Of a DNA stretch of 37,668 nucleotides, positions 7,761 through 36,035 are shown piece after piece. The DNA comes from a bacterium. GTDB taxonomy: Bacteria; SZUA-182; SZUA-191; JAJRXT01. The stretch is taken from positions 1 through 37,668 of the forward strand of contig JAJRXT010000081.1 in the NCBI GenBank assembly GCA_024276125.1, written 5' to 3'. Made by a program: the position numbers and the translations under genes. The notes under the pieces were generated by a model. That model was not told the origin of the DNA and searched no databases. It was given only the letters and a program-made list of their open reading frames with translations. The first letter of the stretch is position 1; each line of letters starts with the position of its first letter.

Positions 7761-8831
7761 CTAAAATATGCCGCAGTAGTCTTTAATAAAAGAGCCCGGT
7801 TTACTGGTAAAATGATAGGTGTTGAAATTACAACATGACAGGCATTTTTTAGTACAATCGGCAAGTTGTTTTTTAACAGCTTCATCATTAATTTCAAAGC
7901 CGTTGTTTTCCATATTAAAATGCCCCAAATCAGCCGATAATAAAGACAGGCAGTAAAACAGCTTGCCTTCCTCGTTTATACCCAAAGTATATTTACCGGC
8001 CGGACATTTCCAATCGTCCTGACTTCCAGTGCCATTATTCTTAAGCCGTTGTTTTACTATCCTAAAATAATCGGTAGGATTGATAATGGTATATCTTTGT
8101 CTTTTTCTATCAATTATCCAGTCGCAAAGTTTATCCAATTTTTTATAATCTTCTTGTTCGCTAAAATACAGGGAATCCTCTTGAGTCACAAAATTTGGAT
8201 AAGGAATCAGCGGTCTCTCTATTATATGTAATGAGACAGATACATTGTTTTTTTTGCCAATTTCCACCAATTCTTTTACTTCCGACATGTTTTTGGTGGT
8301 AATTACCGTATTTAACTTGATTTTAAAACCGAATTTCTTGCTTTTTTCACGCAGCATTTGGAATTGCTCTTGTATGCACTCCAGCGTTTTATCCAAGCCG
8401 AATGAATTTTTTCTTACGGTATCAACTGCGAGGTCTACCACGCCAACCCCGGCCAACGCCAATTCGTCTATTAAATCTTCAGTCAATAATTTTCCATTAG
8501 TCGGTAAATAGGTATACATATTTTTCTGGGTCGAATAAGCGATAATTTTGACCATTCGTTCGCCAAGTAACAATGGTTCTCCGCCCATGATAGCCACCAC
8601 TCTGCAACCAATAGACCTTAGCCAATTCAAAGATTTTACTGCTGTGTTAAAACTCATACTTACTGCATTGTCTTTTACAAAGCAATAACCGCATTTGTAA
8701 TTACAGCTCTGATTTGTAAAAAAATAGGACCAGATCGGAATATTCTTTCTTGTTAACTTCCCCTTAATATAAGGTAGAAAAAAAGAAGTTATTCCATTAA
8801 CTTTCTTTCTGCCATTCATTTTATTCACCAA
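7761..8831 (-). CDS. Radical SAM protein with SPASM-like C-terminal cysteines
   Basis: 356 residues. The radical SAM cluster motif CNYKCGYC sits near residue 43 (CxxxCxxC), followed by the glycine-rich GGEPLLLGE strand and PTNGKLLTE. The C-terminus has further cysteines: CPAGKYTLGINEEGKLFYC and then CTKKCLSCCNF and a final CGIF, matching an auxiliary-cluster SPASM or twitch-type domain. Such enzymes modify peptides or make cofactors. No precursor peptide or partner gene is visible next to it, so the substrate is unknown. It reads alone on the minus strand and is flanked by repeats. Confidence 0.85.
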   Translation of the reverse strand: MVNKMNGRKKVNGITSFFLPYIKGKLTRKNIPIWSYFFTNQSCNYKCGYCFVKDNAVSMSFNTAVKSLNWLRSIGCRVVAIMGGEPLLLGERMVKIIAYSTQKNMYTYLPTNGKLLTEDLIDELALAGVGVVDLAVDTVRKNSFGLDKTLECIQEQFQMLREKSKKFGFKIKLNTVITTKNMSEVKELVEIGKKNNVSVSLHIIERPLIPYPNFVTQEDSLYFSEQEDYKKLDKLCDWIIDRKRQRYTIINPTDYFRIVKQRLKNNGTGSQDDWKCPAGKYTLGINEEGKLFYCLSLLSADLGHFNMENNGFEINDEAVKKQLADCTKKCLSCCNFNTYHFTSKPGSFIKDYCGIF

Positions 8832-18377: not shown

Positions 18378-18503
18378 AAAGAAAAAAAAAGGGATTTTTT
18401 CTAGAATTTTAGTATAAATATTTGGAAAATATCAGGATACTAGTATAATAATAGTAGGGAAAGAAATGTTGTAAAGCTTTATATAAAATCATAGAGGGTT
18501 TAC

Positions 18504-20417
18504 GTGGCTGATACAATTAAAGTTTTTCTTTGCTGTGCCGAAGATGATAAGGAAAAAGCAAAAAAACTATATAGGAAATTACAAGAGAACGGCTTTGATC
18601 CTTGGCTTGATTCCGAAAAACTTTCACCGGGTCCGCAATGGGAATCTGGCGTTAAGCAAGCAATTGAAAATGCTGATTTTTTTGTATCCTGTCTTTCTGA
18701 AACTTTAGTAAAAAGCCGAATATTTAAGCATAAAAAGATTATTCGGGCTTTGGAGCTTTTGGAAGAACAGCCTGAGGGAGAAATATACCTTGTATCTGTT
18801 TGGATTGAAGCTTGTGAACTTCCCCAACGCCTGGGAAATCCTGATCGAATAGATGTATTTACAGAAGAAGGATTTGATAAACTGGTAGACACGCTTAATC
18901 TAAAGCAGACTAAAAAAATTGATGATGATTCAGAAAAACCGGTAAAACAAACAGAAGAAGAATTTAATAGATTACTGTCCGCACTCATGACAGGACAAGA
19001 AGAAGAAAAACCCTCTATTGCCGCTTCAGCTGAAACCGCACTATCAAAAAAACTAGAAGAAGCAAAAAAAGTAGAAAAACCTAAAGAAAACAAAAAAAAG
19101 CTTTTTATTGCCAAAACAAAATTTTTTTTCAAAAAGCTACTAACCAAACTCAAGAAAAAAAAAGATAAAAAAACCCCCGTTTCAACTGAAACTGCCTCAA
19201 AACAAGAAGAACAAGAAGAAGAACAACAACAAGAACAACAAGAAGGTGTCTTTGATAAACTTGCAACTGCAATTAACCTTGAGGAGAGTAATAATAATTA
19301 CCTTCAATATAGCGCCAGGTCCAAGTCAAAACAACCAAGTAAGAAAGAAGCAAAAAAAGATATTACCGCGGTCAAAAGGCTTTTTCCTCTATTAATTGTT
19401 TTAGTCCTTGTTTTTGCCGTTTATATGTTAATAACCTACCGCGATAGCTTTGTTGAATATAAAACCGAACCAACAACAAAAACAAACAACACTAGAAGGG
19501 TAGTTAGACGCAGTAATATTGACATAGAGCCAAATGAGAATACCAGCGCTTATACTGCATCAAGAAGTGAAACGCTAATGGTGATGGATAAATCTACGAA
19601 GAGGAAAAAAACTACTGGAACTAGGGTAAGAAATAAATATAAACCAAGACCAGTAAACAACATTAAAAAAAATACCCAAAATACCCCAAAAGCCCAAAAG
19701 CGAATTGAAATTAATACCAGTTATAATAATTCTTTTTCCAATGTAATTGGAATGAAATTTGTCTACATCCCACAGGGCAGCTTCAAAATGGGAAGTCCTT
19801 TAACTGAAAAAGGTCGCGGTGAAAACGAAGACCTGCATAACGTAATTCTAACAAATGGTTTTTATCTGCAAACAACAGAAGTAACACAAGAACAATGGAA
19901 AAAAATCATGGGAAATAACCCTTCTCGCTTTCAACGCTGCGGTGATAATTGTCCGGTAGAGGGCGTATCTTGGAATGATGCAAAAGAATTTATTAATAAG
20001 CTAAATGAATTAGAAGGAACAAATTCATACCGGCTTCCGACAGAAGCAGAGTGGGAATATGCTTGCCGAGCGGGAAGTGTCGATAGATATTATTTTGGTA
20101 AGGATTCAAGCAGAATTAGAGAATATGCCTGGTATAGGGATAATTCAAATAGGTCAACACAACCGGTAGCTAAACGGATGCCAAACAAATTTGGTTTATA
20201 TGATATGTTAGGTAATGTTTTTGAATGGTGTGAAGATTGGTATGGCGATTATCCTTCTGGAACAGAAAAAAATCCTACAGGCTTGTCCCGCTGAGAATAT
20301 AAGGTGCTTCGCGGCGGCTCCTGGAGACTTACTCAGAATAGCCTTCGCAGCGCTTACCGCTTCGGCGATTATCCACATGTACACTATAATAGCTTTGGGT
20401 TTCGTGTTGCTAAATGA
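18504..20417 (+). pseudogene. TIR - transmembrane - FGE/sulfatase-modifying-factor fusion with one in-frame TGA
   Basis: GTG start with AGAGGG upstream. Residues 1-140 form a TIR-like domain (IKVFLCCAEDDKEKAKKLYR, then FDPWLDSEKLSPGPQWESGV, with the putative catalytic Glu after that Trp). Residues 140-290 are charged and low-complexity (KKK, EEQEEEQQQEQQ). A membrane segment lies near 292-312 (LFPLLIVLVLVFAVYMLITY). Residues 410-637 are an FGE-sulfatase (C-type-lectin fold) domain with GMKFVYIPQGSFKMGSPLTE, TTEVTQEQW, RLPTEAEWEYACRAG and GNVFEWCEDWYGDYP. A TGA at 20292-20294 interrupts NPTGLSR/EYKVLRGGSW, where the family usually has Gly; the same frame goes on to a normal FGFRVAK end at 20417. 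The gene stands alone. Confidence 0.8.
20310..20405 (+). other. Candidate diversity-generating-retroelement variable region
   Basis: This is the C-terminal end of the FGE domain, framed by LRGGSW and GFRV. Between fixed GC-rich codons (CGC GGC GGC TCC TGG at 20310-20324, CTT CGC AGC GCT at 20343-20354) lie codons such as CTT, ACT, AGC, TAC, TTC, GGC, GAT, TAT, CAT, CAC and TAT. Most of these are reachable from AAC or AAT by changing only adenines. This is the pattern expected of adenine-directed mutagenesis of a C-type-lectin target. No reverse transcriptase or template repeat is in the window. Confidence 0.5.
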
Positions 20418-20460: not shown

Positions 20461-20637
20461 TTTGTAAAAAAGGCTATTGAGTTAACTCCGAAAAAGATTA
20501 CATTCTGTCATTCTGAGGCCGAAGAATCTCTCAGTCTACGGGGGTAGATTTTTCACTTCACTTCGTTTAAGAATGACAGCTAATAAAATTAAACAGCTTT
20601 GGTTTCGCAAGAGAACTCTAGTAGCTATTTTTGTAAA
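20461..20637. mobile_element. MITE family A, copy 2
   Basis: The left end (TTTGTAAAAAAGGCTATTGA, then GTTAACTCCG) and the complement of the right end (CTCTAGTAGCTATTTTTGTA) form imperfect terminal repeats. A core palindrome lies at 20505-20580. It starts about 44 nt after the end of the TIR-FGE reading frame. The inner right part shares AAACAGCTTTGGTTTCGCAA with the left part of the 14853 copy in complement. Confidence 0.65.
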
Positions 20638-28614: not shown

Positions 28615-29964
28615 CTAGGCCGCCTGAGCCTTTAAAAAAGCGGGTAGATTACTGGCCTCCCTGGGGCCTACCATAATATTCCAATCCGGCAGCAATTCGG
28701 CCACTTCGCCGGATAAGACAGCCACAGCGCCGGGAAGTATAAGGTTGCGATTTTTGGTCTGTCCTGTAATTCCGCAGGTTTTTACCACCTTGGCAATTTT
28801 ATCGGCATTAAATTTATCAGCCGCCCAAGCGGTAAGCACGCTCATACCCTCGGCATCGGCAATCATTAACCAACTGGCTATTTTACTGTTTTCAATCTCG
28901 CCGGCTACAATAAAGTAGGTTAATGAAAAATTAGTGGTAATCATAATTGGCGAGTCGGCATCCGGTTAGCCTATCTTATAAACATTCTCCTCTACTTGTA
29001 ACGGCTTTTGCGGATCAGTATAAATATTTTGCGTTAAAGTAAGCAATGGCAACAACTGCCAGTCTTCGGCTGCCTTAAGTACAATAATAGAGGCATATCG
29101 CATTACATATACCCCCGCGCAAAGGGCTTCCTGTATCGGATCATCTGTATCTGCTGCCGCACATACCATAACCGGATAGCCTAAGCCTTTAGCGGATTTT
29201 TTTAGAGCGGCTCGTCTTATTTGCGTCAGTTGCGACAAACCGGCGCCCAAAGAGGCAGCCACAGGCTCTAATACTATGTCTTTTACTCCTAAACCAGCTA
29301 CCTTTTCGGCCAATTCTGCTAATTTTTCCAGTACCTCTGCGCTGGATACCGCCAGCGGACATTGATATTTTTTAGCCAGAGTCGCCATAGCTTCATAATT
29401 ATCAGCCGCAGCGGCATGTATAAGAGGTCTTTCTTTAGATAATATTTCTAAGCCAGCCTCTAGGTTAGCAGCATTTTTACCGGCTAAAATAAGCGGTAGG
29501 TCCGAATTAGCCTTTACCGTATTTATAGCTTGGATAAATTTGTCCTTATCAGCGGAGCTGTTTTTAACCATAATAAGACCGGCTCTAAGATTCTGTCCCA
29601 CGCGTTCAAAACAAACAGCCTGCACCTGTTTTATTTTTTCGGCCAGTTTATCGGCGCCTAAGGTATCTTCAACCTGCAAGGTAATTGCCGGTGGATGTAC
29701 AAAGGTTTTTTCATGGCGGAAAAGTACGGTTTCCTCGCCAATGGTTACTTTTTTATCGCTAGTACCGATAATAACCTTACGTATTGGCGGAGCCGATTCT
29801 TCAGCCAAGACCGCCTTAGCGTCATCGGATATATGCGGGCATTTATCCACCGGCGCCTGTTTTTGCGCAAGTTTCATGGCAAATGCCAGACAGGTAGGGA
29901 ACCCGCAGTCCTTGCAATTGGTTCTGGGTAGATGTTTATAAATTTGTATACCGGTAAGCGCCAT
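28615..29964 (-). pseudogene. acsC: Corrinoid iron-sulfur protein large subunit, interrupted by in-frame TAA
   Basis: The first frame (332 residues) begins with the iron-sulfur domain: HLPRTNCKDCGFPTCLAFAM, with a further Cys in VDKCPHIS. The TIM-barrel middle follows. It stops at 28966-28968 after LQVEENVYKIG. The same frame goes on PDADSPIMITTNFSLTYFIV for the C-terminal corrinoid-binding domain to 28615. The total of about 449 residues is the usual AcsC length. AcsC carries the methyl group on cobalt from AcsE to AcsB. The stop falls at the boundary between barrel and corrinoid domains, and an ATG lies 8 codons on. No good ribosome-binding site precedes that ATG. Nonsense mutation, gene fission or a consensus error are all possible. 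AAGGAG precedes the main start. Confidence 0.88.
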
Positions 29965-31172: not shown

Positions 31173-31556
31173 TTATTTTAATCCTAACATTAATTTTCTG
31201 ACAGTAGAGAAGAATTCCCTTGCTGCATCTTCCGGTTTATCTGGTAGATTACTCTCTAAAACATTTCCTTGAGACTCCCAGTGACAATGCTTGGGAAATG
31301 TCTTTACATAACCCCATTTTTGATGAGGCGCATTATCACATCTATAAATCCAGCTGCTAACAGGATATTTGCTCCAATGATAGGCATAATCACTGTCTTG
31401 CGAATACCATATATCTACAAGACTTTCATCAATCAGGAATACCCTTAATTTTCTGGCTCTGCCTGTATAACTATAAATAATTTTAGTATCATATACAATA
31501 TCGGAAAAATCCGAACGGACTATTTCTTCAAGCCTTCTGTAAAGACTTAAGATCAT
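31173..31556 (-). CDS. TumE/DUF6516-like probable toxin
   Basis: 127 residues. The central beta-rich part LRVFLIDESLVDIWYSQDSD, then YAYHWSKYPVSSWIYRCDNA, PHQKWGYVKTFPKHCHWESQ, looks like the TumE-type family: strand with IDESLVDI, an aromatic YHW, and a CDNAPHQ plus FPKHCH pair. These proteins are predicted toxins. The start overlaps the previous gene by 29 nt, a typical TA arrangement. It is the last gene before acsD. The family is my recognition by motif and was not checked. Confidence 0.6.
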   Translation of the reverse strand: MILSLYRRLEEIVRSDFSDIVYDTKIIYSYTGRARKLRVFLIDESLVDIWYSQDSDYAYHWSKYPVSSWIYRCDNAPHQKWGYVKTFPKHCHWESQGNVLESNLPDKPEDAAREFFSTVRKLMLGLK

Positions 31557-31821
31557 TTTCTATTTCCGCAAGTTCCTGTTCTAAGTTTTTGATTTCTATT
31601 AAATCCTCCCAACCGGGATGTTCTATTATTTTTCCTGTTTCTATTTTATCCCGCATATCTTTAATAGAGTTTACCTTATACCGCCGCAGAATTTCTAATC
31701 GTTCCAGGAGATATCCCCGCTTACGTTCTTTGAGCGTAAGCCGCATTGCTTCTATTTTAAGCTCTTCTTTGGAGATGGAATATTTTTTTGAAATTTTTTC
31801 AACTAGGCCGATGGGTTTCAT
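31528..31821 (-). CDS. Probable partner (antitoxin-like) of the TumE-like gene
   Basis: 97 residues, highly charged and helical (EELKIEAMRLTLKERKRGYL, then EIKNLEQELAEIENDLKSLQ at the end, a short coiled coil). No DNA-binding motif is certain. It overlaps the HEPN gene before it by 4 nt and the TumE-like gene after it. Antitoxin function is inferred only from this arrangement. Confidence 0.55.
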   Translation of the reverse strand: MKPIGLVEKISKKYSISKEELKIEAMRLTLKERKRGYLLERLEILRRYKVNSIKDMRDKIETGKIIEHPGWEDLIEIKNLEQELAEIENDLKSLQKA

Positions 31822-32216
31822 ATCATTAAATTGCTTATGGTATTTTCAATTTTATCTACAAATAATCTGGCGTTTTCCAATTGTTTTTGGGCAAGTTCTT
31901 TTGAGACTACGAAAAAATCATCATAATCCCCGCCTTCTCTTAAATCTTTGGCTTCTTTTAATAATCTTCCCACTTCTTTTTCCACTTTCTTTGCCTTAAC
32001 AACATACCGGTTAAACAAGGAAATAACACCGGAGTGTTTCTTGCTTTCCAAAGAAGCTAACGCTAAGACTGCCCTGGCAGCAGAAAACATGGCATAATAT
32101 GATCGAGAGACTGAATCATTATACTGACCATTTTCAAACAAAATCTCCGCCGATTTCAATTTATCCCTGGCGGCGTTAAGCCTGTAACGGACATATTCTT
32201 CTTTGTCATAGCTCAT
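31818..32216 (-). CDS. HEPN-domain protein, probable RNase toxin
   Basis: 132 residues of the HEPN fold: YVRYRLNAARDKLKSAEILF at the start, VSRSYYAMFSAARAVLAL in the middle with the RxxxxH-like RSYYAM region, and SKELAQKQLENARLFVDKIE at the end. HEPN toxins cut RNA and pair with MNT proteins. The ATG overlaps the stop of the MNT pseudogene. Here the HEPN gene is intact while the MNT is broken, the reverse of the pair at 1877-2593. Confidence 0.82.
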   Translation of the reverse strand: MSYDKEEYVRYRLNAARDKLKSAEILFENGQYNDSVSRSYYAMFSAARAVLALASLESKKHSGVISLFNRYVVKAKKVEKEVGRLLKEAKDLREGGDYDDFFVVSKELAQKQLENARLFVDKIENTISNLMI

Positions 32217-32550
32217 AAGGAAATGGCTTCTTTCTCAATATTACGGTAGAAGAAGGTGCGGTAATTTCTCATCATATCAAGCTCAGCCAGACTAAGAATT
32301 TTAAAGGACGTTCTAACATCATATTCCAGATCAATATCTTGATCTATTTCATAAATTTTGTCTATAATTTCTACGGTTTTTTCTTTAACAATTAGTAAAA
32401 TGTCAATATCCGATTCGGAATTAAAATCCCCTCTGGCTTTTGAACCGAAAGTTGTATCCGCACCAAGTCATCCTTAAGATGCGCCCTAAGTCTGGCAGTT
32501 AATAAACCAATAGCTTTTCTTTCCTTGTTGGTTAAATAAGCAGCCTTCAC
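32213..32550 (-). pseudogene. MNT nucleotidyltransferase with one-base frameshift
   Basis: A GTG at 32550 opens VKAAYLTNKERKAIGLLTAR then LRAHLKDDL. The next frame continues GADTTFGSKARGDFNSESDI DILLIVKEK, with the full GS and SDIDI signature, to a TGA that overlaps the HEPN ATG. One base is missing near the LKDDL/GADTT join (about 32460). Both halves are otherwise undamaged, so this is recent or an error. Confidence 0.75.
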
Positions 32551-32766
32551 AATGCTTTTTCCTTATACAAAATCCCCGCTAAAATTACACGGATTAGCTA
32601 AACCGGCGCCTTTTCCAACCCACATTATTCATAAATTTGGGCAAATTTAAGCTAGCCCTATTACAAAACAAGGAGATAGTCCAACGTCCTAAAAAAACTT
32701 AATTTGCCAAAAGACAATCAATTGGAAGCTGATAAGATATTGATTTTAATCTTGGCACACAATGGC

Positions 32767-33014
32767 TCATATTAACTCCCGAATTATTCTGGCTAAAGAG
32801 AAAACCGGCGCTTTTTGATATCTTTCCGGTTTGCTGTGGGATTTGATTAACTCATCTATAGTCTGAGAAACTTTGCCTTCCAGATATATTGCGCCGCATG
32901 AGAGCAAACCAAAGCCGGCGCCCCTTCAAAAAGATAAAATTCCTTATCCCCCCAAAGCTGGTCGTAGGTTATAATCTTTTTTTCAAATTCTCCGCCGCAT
33001 TCAGCGCATTGCAT
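32767..33014 (-). pseudogene. YgiT-type zinc-finger protein with one-base deletion
   Basis: The ATG at 33014 opens MQCAECGGEFEKKIITYDQL and continues WGDKEFYLFEGAPALVCSH. The next frame continues CGAIYLEGKVSQTIDELIKS and HSKPERYQKAPVFSLARII. Restoring one T (CAT TGC GGC) at about 32897 gives a YgiT-type antitoxin with two CxxC pairs. Just upstream, 33031-33083 encodes the last codons of a lost gene (LLNDHPESITPAEKE then stop), cut by the mobile element at 33084. That fragment is likely the partner gene. Confidence 0.75.
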
Positions 33015-33083
33015 ATCTATTTTCTCAAGTTTATTCTTTCTCAGCAGGCGTAATAGATTCGGGATGATCGTTTAATAACTTAT

Positions 33084-33276
33084 AATGGCTATTTAAGTTA
33101 ACTCAGAATAGTTTATATTTGGGGTTAACATAAGCCAAAATTGTTTAACTTATTTTAGCGGTCATTCTGAACGAAACGAAGTGGAGTGAAGAATCTACCC
33201 GCAATAGCGAGTAAGATTCTTCGGCTTTCAGCCTCAGAATGACAGAATATAATCTTTTTCGCAAGTTAACTTATTG
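33084..33276. mobile_element. MITE family A, copy 3
   Basis: The left end AATGGCTATTTAAGTTAACT and the complement of the right end GACAATAAGTTAACTTGCG form imperfect terminal repeats around a core palindrome (33161-33244). It cuts the 3' remnant of the gene upstream of the YgiT relic. Confidence 0.65.
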
Positions 33277-33279
33277 TCT

Positions 33280-33685
33280 TTATCTTAAGAGATAAGTTTT
33301 TAAACTCTTTTTTCCTTCTAAAGCTAGCCGGATTGCCCTATGGCTCCCATCTCTTATATGTGCTTTATCATTTTCTAGTTTTGAAATAAGCACATCCTTC
33401 CATATCAGGCAATATGAATTCCGAAAGAGGTAATTCTTCCAAATACCAATTGTCTTTATGACATTGACAGAAAATTTCCTCGAAACCAGTTCGTCTATAA
33501 GAATCTCCAATTAATGCTTTTGCCAACTTGCGGGTTTCCTGTATATGGCCTGGAGCACACAGAAAATTTCCCAATAGATTATTAAACTGGCTAAAAAAAG
33601 TAGCGTCTCCACCCTCAAACAATCTAGCCAATTCTGCCTTAATATAAGTTACTAGCACTTCTTGTTCGTCTACTTTGGAATCCAA
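33280..33685 (-). pseudogene. Hypothetical protein with a frameshift near its middle
   Basis: The first frame (from 33685) reads MDSKVDEQEVLVTYIKAELA to LPLSEFILPD and then runs off. The next frame continues WKDVLISKLENDKAHIRDGS and HRAIRLALEGKKSLKTYLLR. The second half resembles ParB/Srx-like cores with the D-G-xHR motif, which in other proteins binds nucleotide. The join is near 33390 and involves one or two bases. I do not recognise the full-length family, so the reading as one broken gene is inferred from good coding character on both sides. Confidence 0.55.
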
Positions 33686-33778
33686 GTTTTAAACCCTTCT
33701 TTATGATTAACAGATTTACATCCTTCTAATATTCCTAAAACAAAGCAGTAGATTGAGTTTAAAAACCCAACAAATTCT

Positions 33779-34090
33779 CTAAAGATTTAATGCAAAATCT
33801 ATGGCCTTACCAATTTTATACATTTTTTCATCAGATAAAGTTGTAATAAGAGAGCCGATTTTTGATTTAGAGACTGTCTGAATGTGATCGCAATTAACTA
33901 CACAGTCATTATATAAACCATCGTGTTTTGACAAAAAGACCTCGCTTGGTATATCTCTGATGGTTGAGGTTATTGGTGCGATCGTGACCTCATACAGATA
34001 TTCCAATATAGAGTCCCTGGTTAAAATAACTATAGGACGCCTTTTGTCGGGAGCGCTGAACTTATACCACCTCACTTCGCCCTTTTTCAT
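33779..34090 (-). CDS. mazF: MazF/PemK-type endoribonuclease toxin
   Basis: 103 residues. MKKGEVRWYKFSAPDKRRPI is the usual MazF start with the arginine-proline pair that begins the catalytic barrel; VTIAPITSTIRDIPSEVFLS then GLYNDCVVNCDHIQTVSKSK follow, with the T and N of the active surface. MazF cuts mRNA at short motifs. The start overlaps the stop of the RHH antitoxin by one base. The pair is intact. Confidence 0.92.
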   Translation of the reverse strand: MKKGEVRWYKFSAPDKRRPIVILTRDSILEYLYEVTIAPITSTIRDIPSEVFLSKHDGLYNDCVVNCDHIQTVSKSKIGSLITTLSDEKMYKIGKAIDFALNL

Positions 34091-34320
34091 TAATCACCCC
34101 ATTCTTGTTCCGACTCCCAAACACCAAATTCCGTTTTGCCAACCGGATAACGCTTATACCCTTGGCGATGCTTTTTTTCCAGCTGATCAATATTTAATTG
34201 TTTAATCGCATCCCTTAACGCCTTACGGGCAAAAGCAGAGCGGTTCGTGTTTAATTTTTTTACCGCATCATCAACTGCTGCCACCAGTTCGTCATCCAAA
34301 GTCATCTGAATCGTTTTCAT
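34090..34320 (-). CDS. Ribbon-helix-helix antitoxin of MazF
   Basis: 76 residues from the ATG at 34320, preceded by GAGGGTC; the frame is open further upstream, but that part is a neighbour's relic. MKTIQMTLDDELVAAVDDAV then KKLNTNRSAFARKALRDAIK is a clear RHH DNA-binding domain. The acidic tail EFGVWESEQEWGD would cover MazF. Confidence 0.9.
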   Translation of the reverse strand: MKTIQMTLDDELVAAVDDAVKKLNTNRSAFARKALRDAIKQLNIDQLEKKHRQGYKRYPVGKTEFGVWESEQEWGD

Positions 34321-34348
34321 AAAAAGACCCTCAAATAATTCTGGGTAC

Positions 34349-34459
34349 TTATAGATGCAATAATCCACATTGCATCTGATACCAATCATGTCTTGCTCCG
34401 TGTCTGATAAGTTCACAACCCATTTTATTTAACCGCCTTATCAAATCCTTTCTTTTCAT
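34349..34459 (-). pseudogene. hicA: HicA-type toxin, C-terminally truncated
   Basis: The ATG at 34459 overlaps the hicB stop. It encodes MKRKDLIRRLNKMGCELIRH GARHDWYQ, the first half of a HicA protein including the catalytic-type histidine, then switches to unrelated residues and stops after 36 residues. The normal length is about 60. The remaining part is lost, and the next gene (RHH antitoxin) starts about 28 nt on. Confidence 0.75.
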
Positions 34460-34647
34460 GCAACTTCCAGTTCAGCTACTTTATGAACACAGGCAATCGC
34501 GCCGCTGGTTAGTTCTTTATATAAATCCTTCAGGTTTTCTTTGAGTTCATCTAAAGTTTCACCTTGGGTTATATAGTCTGGGTATTCTTCCAGATGTCCA
34601 AGCCACATATTATCATCTTGCCAATATACAAATTTTCTGGTTTGCAT
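34456..34647 (-). CDS. hicB: HicB-like antitoxin (orphaned by a truncated HicA)
   Basis: 63 residues. FVYWQDDNMWLGHLEEYPDY and TQGETLDELKENLKDLYKEL match the HicB partial RNase H fold. The gene precedes the truncated HicA with overlapping stop and start. It lacks the C-terminal DNA-binding part, as many short HicB proteins do. Confidence 0.85.
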   Translation of the reverse strand: MQTRKFVYWQDDNMWLGHLEEYPDYITQGETLDELKENLKDLYKELTSGAIACVHKVAELEVA

Positions 34648-34732
34648 GATTTTTTTCTCTCTAGCTTAGCTATCTTCAAATCTCATTCGGTTTTTATGTT
34701 TCGGGAAGGATTCCAGAAATAAATAGGTATAC

Positions 34733-34939
34733 CTACAAGTCCGATTTTTCTAACCCTACAATTTTCATTATAGCGGTCAACATACCTCTTTTTAAATCTT
34801 TGTTAGCATGAACCGGAATACTTATTCTTTCTATTCTCCCGTCTTTCATGTAAACATAGTGGCTTCCATGCACCTTCTTTAACTGCCAGCCGGCTCTTTC
34901 TAAAATCCTACAGAGATGTTTTCCTGATATGCTTTTCAT
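34733..34939 (-). CDS. hicA: HicA toxin
   Basis: 68 residues of the YcfA/HicA family, a dsRNA-binding-like fold that cuts m[23 protein letters not shown] then [20 protein letters not shown] carries the conserved GSHY histidine, and [20 protein letters not shown] completes it. It overlaps hicB by 4 nt and is intact. Confidence 0.93.
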
Positions 34940-35139
34940 ACGGCAATTTCCAGAATGCGATCCTCTGAAGTTAGATTTACCTTGTCTACATCAATAGAAA
35001 GACATGCCTCAACGGCCTCATAAACATTTACTAATAAGTCTTCCCAAGTTTCACCTTGGGTATAACAACCGGGAATTGATGGAACCTCCGCCCAAAATCC
35101 ACCCTCTTTTGCCTTATGAATAACTATTTTCAGTTTCAT
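34936..35139 (-). CDS. hicB: HicB antitoxin
   Basis: 67 residues from the ATG at 35139. An upstream in-frame start would add 25 residues that overlap the acsE end, but [20 protein letters not shown] followed by [20 protein letters not shown] is the true HicB start. GGGGGAT lies just upstream. It is 50 nt after the acsE stop, so the acsE transcript probably reads through it. Confidence 0.9.
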
Positions 35140-35189
35140 GCCAAATCCCCCTCTATGGGCAGACAAATTCCTGCTACCTTTCTTACTCT

Positions 35190-36035
35190 TCAAGTCTCCA
35201 GATAAGAGTGGCAATACAGGATATTACCCTTAAAGACCTCTACGGTTTTAAGCTCATCATCATTTAATATATCTTCTAATACGATATTATCGCCCATAGC
35301 TTCGGCCTTACGCATAATATCCATCATACGCGTATCCATAGGGTCCATAATAGCAGAATAAAGCCCGCGCTGCATAGCCATAGCCAGATAAACGCGATTT
35401 AGGATGCTGCGGTTTTCTTCAGGGCAGGTATTAGAGATATTGCTTAGGCCTACTGTGGTTTTCATGGGGGGATCGTTTAGTCCGCAGAACATCTCAATGC
35501 TCTCTAAAATGGGAATTGCATGCTCCTGCATACCATTAACCGTAAGCACAATAGGGTCTAAGAAGATATTTTCAGGCGCCACTCCGAATTCAGCAGCGCC
35601 GGCCATAACTTCCATAGCCAACATACAGCGCTCATCCGTATCTTTAGGCATTCCCCGCCCGCCGAGGGCTAACCCTATGATATCGGCATTATATTTAGCC
35701 GCCAGCGGAAACATCTTTTCAATTCGGCTGCGGGCGGCGGAAGTGGAATTGATAATAGCCTTGCCGCGGTGTACTTTGAGTCCGGCTTCAATAGCTTCGT
35801 GATTGGTGGTATCTAAGCTTAAAGGCACATTTACCACCTCTTGAATGTTCTGAACTAGCCATGGCATTACTTCTGTCCCGTTTTTTCTGGCCGGACCGAT
35901 ATTTACATCTAAAATATCAGCGCCTGCATCAACTTGCTCTTAAGCTATTTGCTGAATTGGTTTAGCATCTTTTTCCTGAATTGCTTTAGCGATAAATTTG
36001 GTAATAATATTTATTTTTTCACCGATTACTAACAT
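35190..36035 (-). pseudogene. acsE: Methyltetrahydrofolate:corrinoid protein methyltransferase, interrupted by in-frame TAA
   Basis: AcsE moves the methyl group from methyl-THF to the corrinoid protein. The true start is the ATG at 36035 behind a strong AGGAGG (36046-36051), giving MLVIGEKINIITKFIAKAIQ and then PIQQIA. A TAA at 35940-35942 interrupts the frame. It continues EQVDAGADILDVNIGPARKN and through MPWLVQNIQEVVNVPLSLDT to YCHSYLET at 35190. Homologs keep QEQVDAGAD here, so CAA to TAA explains it. Total length is about 281 residues. A restart at the internal ATG (35867) would lose the first barrel strands, so it is unlikely to give an active enzyme. Confidence 0.88.

Follow-up and report, generated by a model that had tools for sequence, protein, structure and literature searches.

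Introduction

Is a bacterial gene that joins a TIR domain to an FGE-sulfatase (FGE) domain across a membrane helix a working receptor, or what is left of one? The question is raised by a gene in the middle of the window, by which we mean the whole 37,668-nucleotide stretch analyzed here (contig JAJRXT010000081.1), from a bacterium of the SZUA-182 lineage. A sequence-only reading had suggested a surface-sensing or defense receptor, in which the TIR domain could be a NAD+-cleaving effector and the membrane-anchored FGE domain, which has the C-type lectin fold, a sensor. We accordingly considered the integrity of both domains, their relatives in other genomes and the genes that surround them.

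Architecture and reading frame of the fusion

The domain content proposed earlier is borne out by profile searches: the TIR_2 match (E=2e-20, 73.8 bits against a Pfam cut-off of 28) and the FGE-sulfatase match (E=2e-38, 132.8 bits against 23.3) are both well above threshold, and lie together with the linker and the membrane helix in a single plus-strand frame (Table 1). This frame opens with a GTG preceded by GAGG, a plausible Shine-Dalgarno sequence, has a promoter-like site farther upstream, and continues for 596 codons without a further break up to an in-frame TGA. The sequence-only reading had carried the protein on to 20417, but translation would stop earlier, at the TGA, with the rest of the frame lying beyond it. 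The translated product hence does not include a complete FGE domain: positions 4-195 of the 255 in the profile are covered before the TGA and 214-255 after it, and the 39 residues past the TGA match the end of the profile by themselves (Pfam E=3e-5). A 217-aa minus-strand ORF over 18500-19153 was set aside as a mirror of the coding strand.

The TIR domain and the membrane helix are separated by about 165 residues of charged linker. There are six Lys/Arg in the 15 residues before the helix and three after it, and given this excess of positive charge on the N-terminal side the TIR domain is probably cytosolic and the FGE domain outside. Together with the domain order, this supports a receptor-like topology with a single membrane pass.

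Table 1. Positions in the window of the fusion gene, its parts and other features discussed in the text
Feature	Coordinates	Strand	Basis or remark
Radical SAM protein	7761..8831		profile search
Fic/DOC protein, 332 aa	13401..14399		immediately 3' of the sigma-54 response regulator gene
Promoter-like site	18422..18449		consensus match only
Fusion ORF of 596 aa (TIR, charged linker, membrane helix, FGE domain cut short)	18504..20294	+	GTG start, TGA stop
TIR_2 domain (PF13676), aa 7-128	18522..18887	+	Pfam match; fold intact by model
Lys78 (AAG) at the catalytic Glu column of 55 aligned relatives	18735..18737	+	alignment
Low-complexity Lys/Glu/Gln-rich linker, probably cytosolic	18888..19379	+	sequence
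Single hydrophobic helix, aa 293-311, N-in by charge	19380..19436	+	Kyte-Doolittle mean 2.86
FGE-sulfatase domain (PF03781), matched part ahead of the stop, aa 418-582	19755..20249	+	Pfam match
In-frame TGA; Gly in relatives at the same column	20292..20294	+	alignment
FGE remainder past the TGA, GGSW...GFR segment (variable repeat in DGR relatives), then next stop	20295..20417	+	same frame
Partly inverted repeat 3' of the fusion gene	20507..20580		
In-frame TAA in acsC	28966..28968		Glu in 5/5 relatives compared
Short frames between acsD and acsE (about 3.7 kb)	31500..35200		
In-frame stop in acsE	35940..35942		

The TIR domain: a conserved fold with an altered active site

Relatives from Gloeothece, Chlorohelix and Acidovorax plasmids served for a first alignment of the TIR domain, and a second one used 55 TIRs of our genome collection. 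The NADase glutamate, for which a check had been suggested, proved to be replaced: all 55 of the other aligned TIRs have Glu at the catalytic column, and this protein has Lys78. The Glu of the same column is required for the toxicity of AbTIR and TcpO-TIR (PMC10022894). The surrounding active-site motif is also eroded, with only one of its seven conserved columns kept as against 35 of 54 elsewhere in the domain (Fisher p=0.016), even if one of the six changed columns is merely Tyr to Phe. An AlphaFold model (mean pLDDT 74) matches the solved TIRs of Hydra TRR-2, SPARTA and SARM1 (Z 12-14), and by alignment and model the domain is thus a true TIR fold that lacks the NADase residue. The catalytic Glu in the alpha-C helix region, which marks NAD+-cleaving TIRs, is absent, and with most of the active-site motif gone as well the domain can very likely no longer cleave NAD+. 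The earlier view of it as a NAD+-cleaving effector therefore does not hold up. Lys78 and its neighbors are independent of whether the downstream TGA is real.

In the TIR tree no other terminal branch comes close to that of this domain, with 1.68 changes per column (median 0.14), which makes its placement among the TIRs unsure. The fusion is the only TIR_2 protein in its own assembly, and just one relative of the TIR was found at E<=1e-6 in the rest of the phylum, a short remnant riddled with stops in one genome (G002). The viral contigs that we searched yielded no relative of the TIR.

TIR-FGE fusions in other bacteria

A search for the same architecture elsewhere was rewarded, with 16 of the 79 loci that have relatives of the TIR also encoding FGE in frame with it. 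These belong to Chloroflexota (Anaerolineales, Oscillochloris) and several Cyanobacteriota, and as in the window gene, the TIR_2 domain is N-terminal and the FGE domain C-terminal, e.g. in Oscillochloris (L052), an anaerolinean (L065), Symploca (L067) and Microcystis (L068). They keep the catalytic Glu, whereas the window gene combines a mutated TIR with an interrupted FGE domain, and most of them have a short linker and no membrane helix. The Oscillochloris protein is the sole one of the 16 with a helix, and shares the order TIR, membrane helix, FGE. The fused TIRs fall into two main groups in the TIR tree, as do their FGE domains in the FGE tree, which suggests that the two domains were probably joined more than once. 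Two of the fusion loci (L090 and L088) have reverse-transcriptase-like frames; a template repeat was not found in the stretches fetched for them.

FGE/CLec sensors diversified by diversity-generating retroelements (DGRs) are known to be joined to, or to adjoin, TIR, STAND and peptidase domains (PMC10907252, PMC7159879, PMC8195603). Our protein resembles the DGR-diversified CLec/FGE antigen sensors of multicellular bacteria (PMC10907252) in its C-terminal FGE domain as presumed sensor and in the linkage to a conflict domain, TIR being among those found in such proteins. It differs from them in lacking an NTPase domain, in having a membrane helix and a long charged linker, and in that its own assembly contains neither a DGR reverse transcriptase nor a template repeat.

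The FGE domain and its relationship to diversity-generating retroelements

Catalytic formylglycine-generating enzymes carry their active-site cysteines towards the C-terminal end (GFRCA). Here the corresponding segment reads GFRVA and there is no Cys past the TGA, so that the catalytic cysteines are missing. Profile searches recovered 13 FGE matches in 12 genes of the same genome, and in a tree the FGE domain of the fusion is not close to any of the others. Its nearest neighbor is instead an FGE domain from a genome of the same family (G001 C42; 56% identity, support 99/89), and the well-supported larger group around it also includes G008 C86, a verified DGR target to which it is 58% identical, and G006 C213. 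In G008 C86 a reverse transcriptase is encoded 3' of the FGE gene, and over the length of the repeat the template and variable copies differ only at template adenines; G006 C213 has the same pattern. Both loci (L152 and L153, respectively), from relatives in the same class, are clear diversity-generating retroelements with FGE targets. One of the targets in G006 is a long protein that resembles a STAND/NTPase region in its N-terminal part.

The segment past the TGA aligns without gaps with the G008 variable repeat. With the end of the FGE gene as query, template repeats were found neither in the window nor in the remaining assembly, which is 94% complete and may lack the relevant contig; a comparable scan does detect the template repeats of G008 and G006. 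DGR-type reverse transcriptases were likewise not found in the assembly. Its single RVT_1 match is a UG13b reverse transcriptase of the DRT defense type (G000 C138, L015 1057-2373, 487 bits). We also tried the codon signature of DGR mutagenesis (NNY at template-Asn positions), which does not separate DGR from non-DGR FGE genes; as this test does not discriminate, it is the tree that argues for a DGR ancestry of the FGE domain.

Lone in-frame stops in the fusion and in other genes

Single stops are not confined to the fusion. On the same contig acsC and acsE each have one in-frame stop (Table 1), past which the frame is intact in both. In the genome as a whole one stop each is found in two of the about 23 strong ABC-transporter domains (none in G001 or G002) and in two of the 12 FGE genes, and among the radical SAM domains listed there is one stop in this genome (G000), four in G001 and none in G002. 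Beyond the window, the interrupted ABC-transporter, radical SAM and FGE genes of G000 lie at C88:5080-5529, C92:4315-4761, C5:22004-22429 and C43:107687-108394, and the frames that were inspected are intact past the stop. Wherever relatives or the family consensus reveal the ancestral codon (Gly for the TGA of the fusion, Glu for the acsC TAA and Glu for the TAA of the ABC transporter on C92), it is one G-to-T change away from the stop. The lone stops may reflect a mutator, decay (perhaps family-wide) or a sequencing artefact, and since they also affect acsC, acsE and other conserved genes, decay and sequence error are inseparable at the TGA of the fusion.

Recoding of the TGA was considered and rejected. 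For selenocysteine, the downstream structure is not unusually stable (z 0.48), and an Rfam match near the stop is below the gathering score and was attributed to chance. As for a sense reading, TGA terminates other genes in the window, and genes are interrupted by TAA too.

Genomic neighborhood

The TIR-FGE gene stands alone. Upstream of it are gatA, gatB and genes for a rhomboid protein, a sigma-54 response regulator and a Fic protein, followed by serS and tRNA-Ser; downstream is an HU gene and then the genes for CO dehydrogenase/acetyl-CoA synthase. No defense system or partner gene was recognized in the flanking genes. PADLOC and NCBIfam matches to Thoeris, SAVED-TIR, TIR-APAZ/SPARTA and retron-TIR span only the TIR domain, with the NCBIfam scores far below cut-off and without nearby partners.

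Several other features of the window were recorded. Just 3' of the fusion gene lies GTCATTCTGAGGCCGAAGAATCT, followed by the partly inverted AAGAATGACAG; it has the look of a small mobile repeat, and this exact half occurs in one copy in the window. The radical SAM protein upstream matches best with viperin profiles (70-78 bits against an NCBIfam cut-off of 180), and probably belongs to a non-viperin radical SAM family. By eye, several of the short frames between acsD and acsE resemble toxin-antitoxin or nucleotidyltransferase/HEPN genes.

Receptor, scaffold or decaying gene

On balance we lean towards the reading that this was a membrane receptor of the known TIR-FGE type whose gene is now in decay, or which at most retains a non-enzymatic TIR scaffold. 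Its ancestor would have bound a ligand through an outside FGE domain of the C-type lectin fold, linked by one membrane helix to a cytosolic TIR that responded. NAD+ cleavage would then have been lost through the change of Glu to Lys and the erosion of the active-site motif, and the nonsense codon would cut the FGE domain just ahead of the part that serves DGR targets as ligand-binding surface, leaving a product, if one is made, with an anchored TIR fold and an incomplete sensor. Decay is consistent with the remainder of the FGE domain being still readable past the TGA, and with an FGE domain that groups with DGR relatives, yet comes from an assembly in which the DGR parts were not found. The long TIR branch, the stop-ridden remnant in G002 and the single stops in other conserved genes of the genome point the same way. 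Against decay, the unbroken 596-codon frame and the preserved structural core of the TIR suggest that the protein works or did so until recently, the TGA may stem from an assembly error, and the long TIR branch could reflect a new function instead.

A possible, if rather doubtful, alternative is one in which the TGA is a sequence error or is read through, the FGE domain is complete, and the TIR of a working receptor acts as a non-enzymatic assembly or adaptor module, comparable to animal TLR adaptors. The selective loss of the active site with retention of the fold residues, the otherwise open frame with its promoter-like and ribosome-binding sequences, and the lone stops in acsC and acsE, which may have a common origin unrelated to any decay of the fusion, would all fit it. 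However, neither a nearby partner gene nor a second TIR_2 protein in the assembly is available for recruitment, and the very long TIR branch also counts against it. Animal Toll-like receptors have a sensor outside the cell, cross the membrane once and end in a cytosolic TIR that is non-enzymatic; their likeness to the window protein is one of layout only, the sensor domain being unrelated and the terminal order opposite. That the window protein is a bacterial counterpart under selection, with an outside FGE sensor of DGR descent and a TIR signaling by assembly, appears decidedly unlikely. We also regard as unlikely that the TGA is a mere assembly or sequencing error in an ordinary TIR-FGE receptor with a TIR working in an unknown way. 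The G-to-T pattern of the stops is one that oxidized DNA or a consensus of low depth might produce, but this leaves Lys78 (G to A, if derived from GAG) and its altered neighbors unexplained, and radical SAM genes likewise contain lone stops in the same-family genome G001, though not in G002. Finally, the active NADase defense receptor originally envisaged is largely refuted and highly improbable. It can draw on the significant profile matches to both domains, on the presence of a membrane helix and on Glu-bearing homologs elsewhere such as the Oscillochloris TIR-TM-FGE protein, but is opposed by the Glu-to-Lys change, the truncated sensor and the lack of defense genes nearby. What endures of the receptor proposal is the layout, which fits by domain order and charge, and the recurrence of the fusion; the TGA that cuts the sensor and the flanks devoid of recognized defense genes weigh against it.

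Implications

The TIR-FGE fusion itself is of a known kind, proteins in biological conflicts that combine TIR, FGE and DGRs having already been published. The present gene adds a little-sampled phylum to the known spread of such sensor proteins. Under the decay reading that we favor, it may also offer a picture of the end of such a system, with a lost active site, a truncated sensor and the diversification machinery absent. Should the TIR domain, on the other hand, still work in the absence of the glutamate, it would represent a rare case of bacterial TIR signaling by assembly alone.
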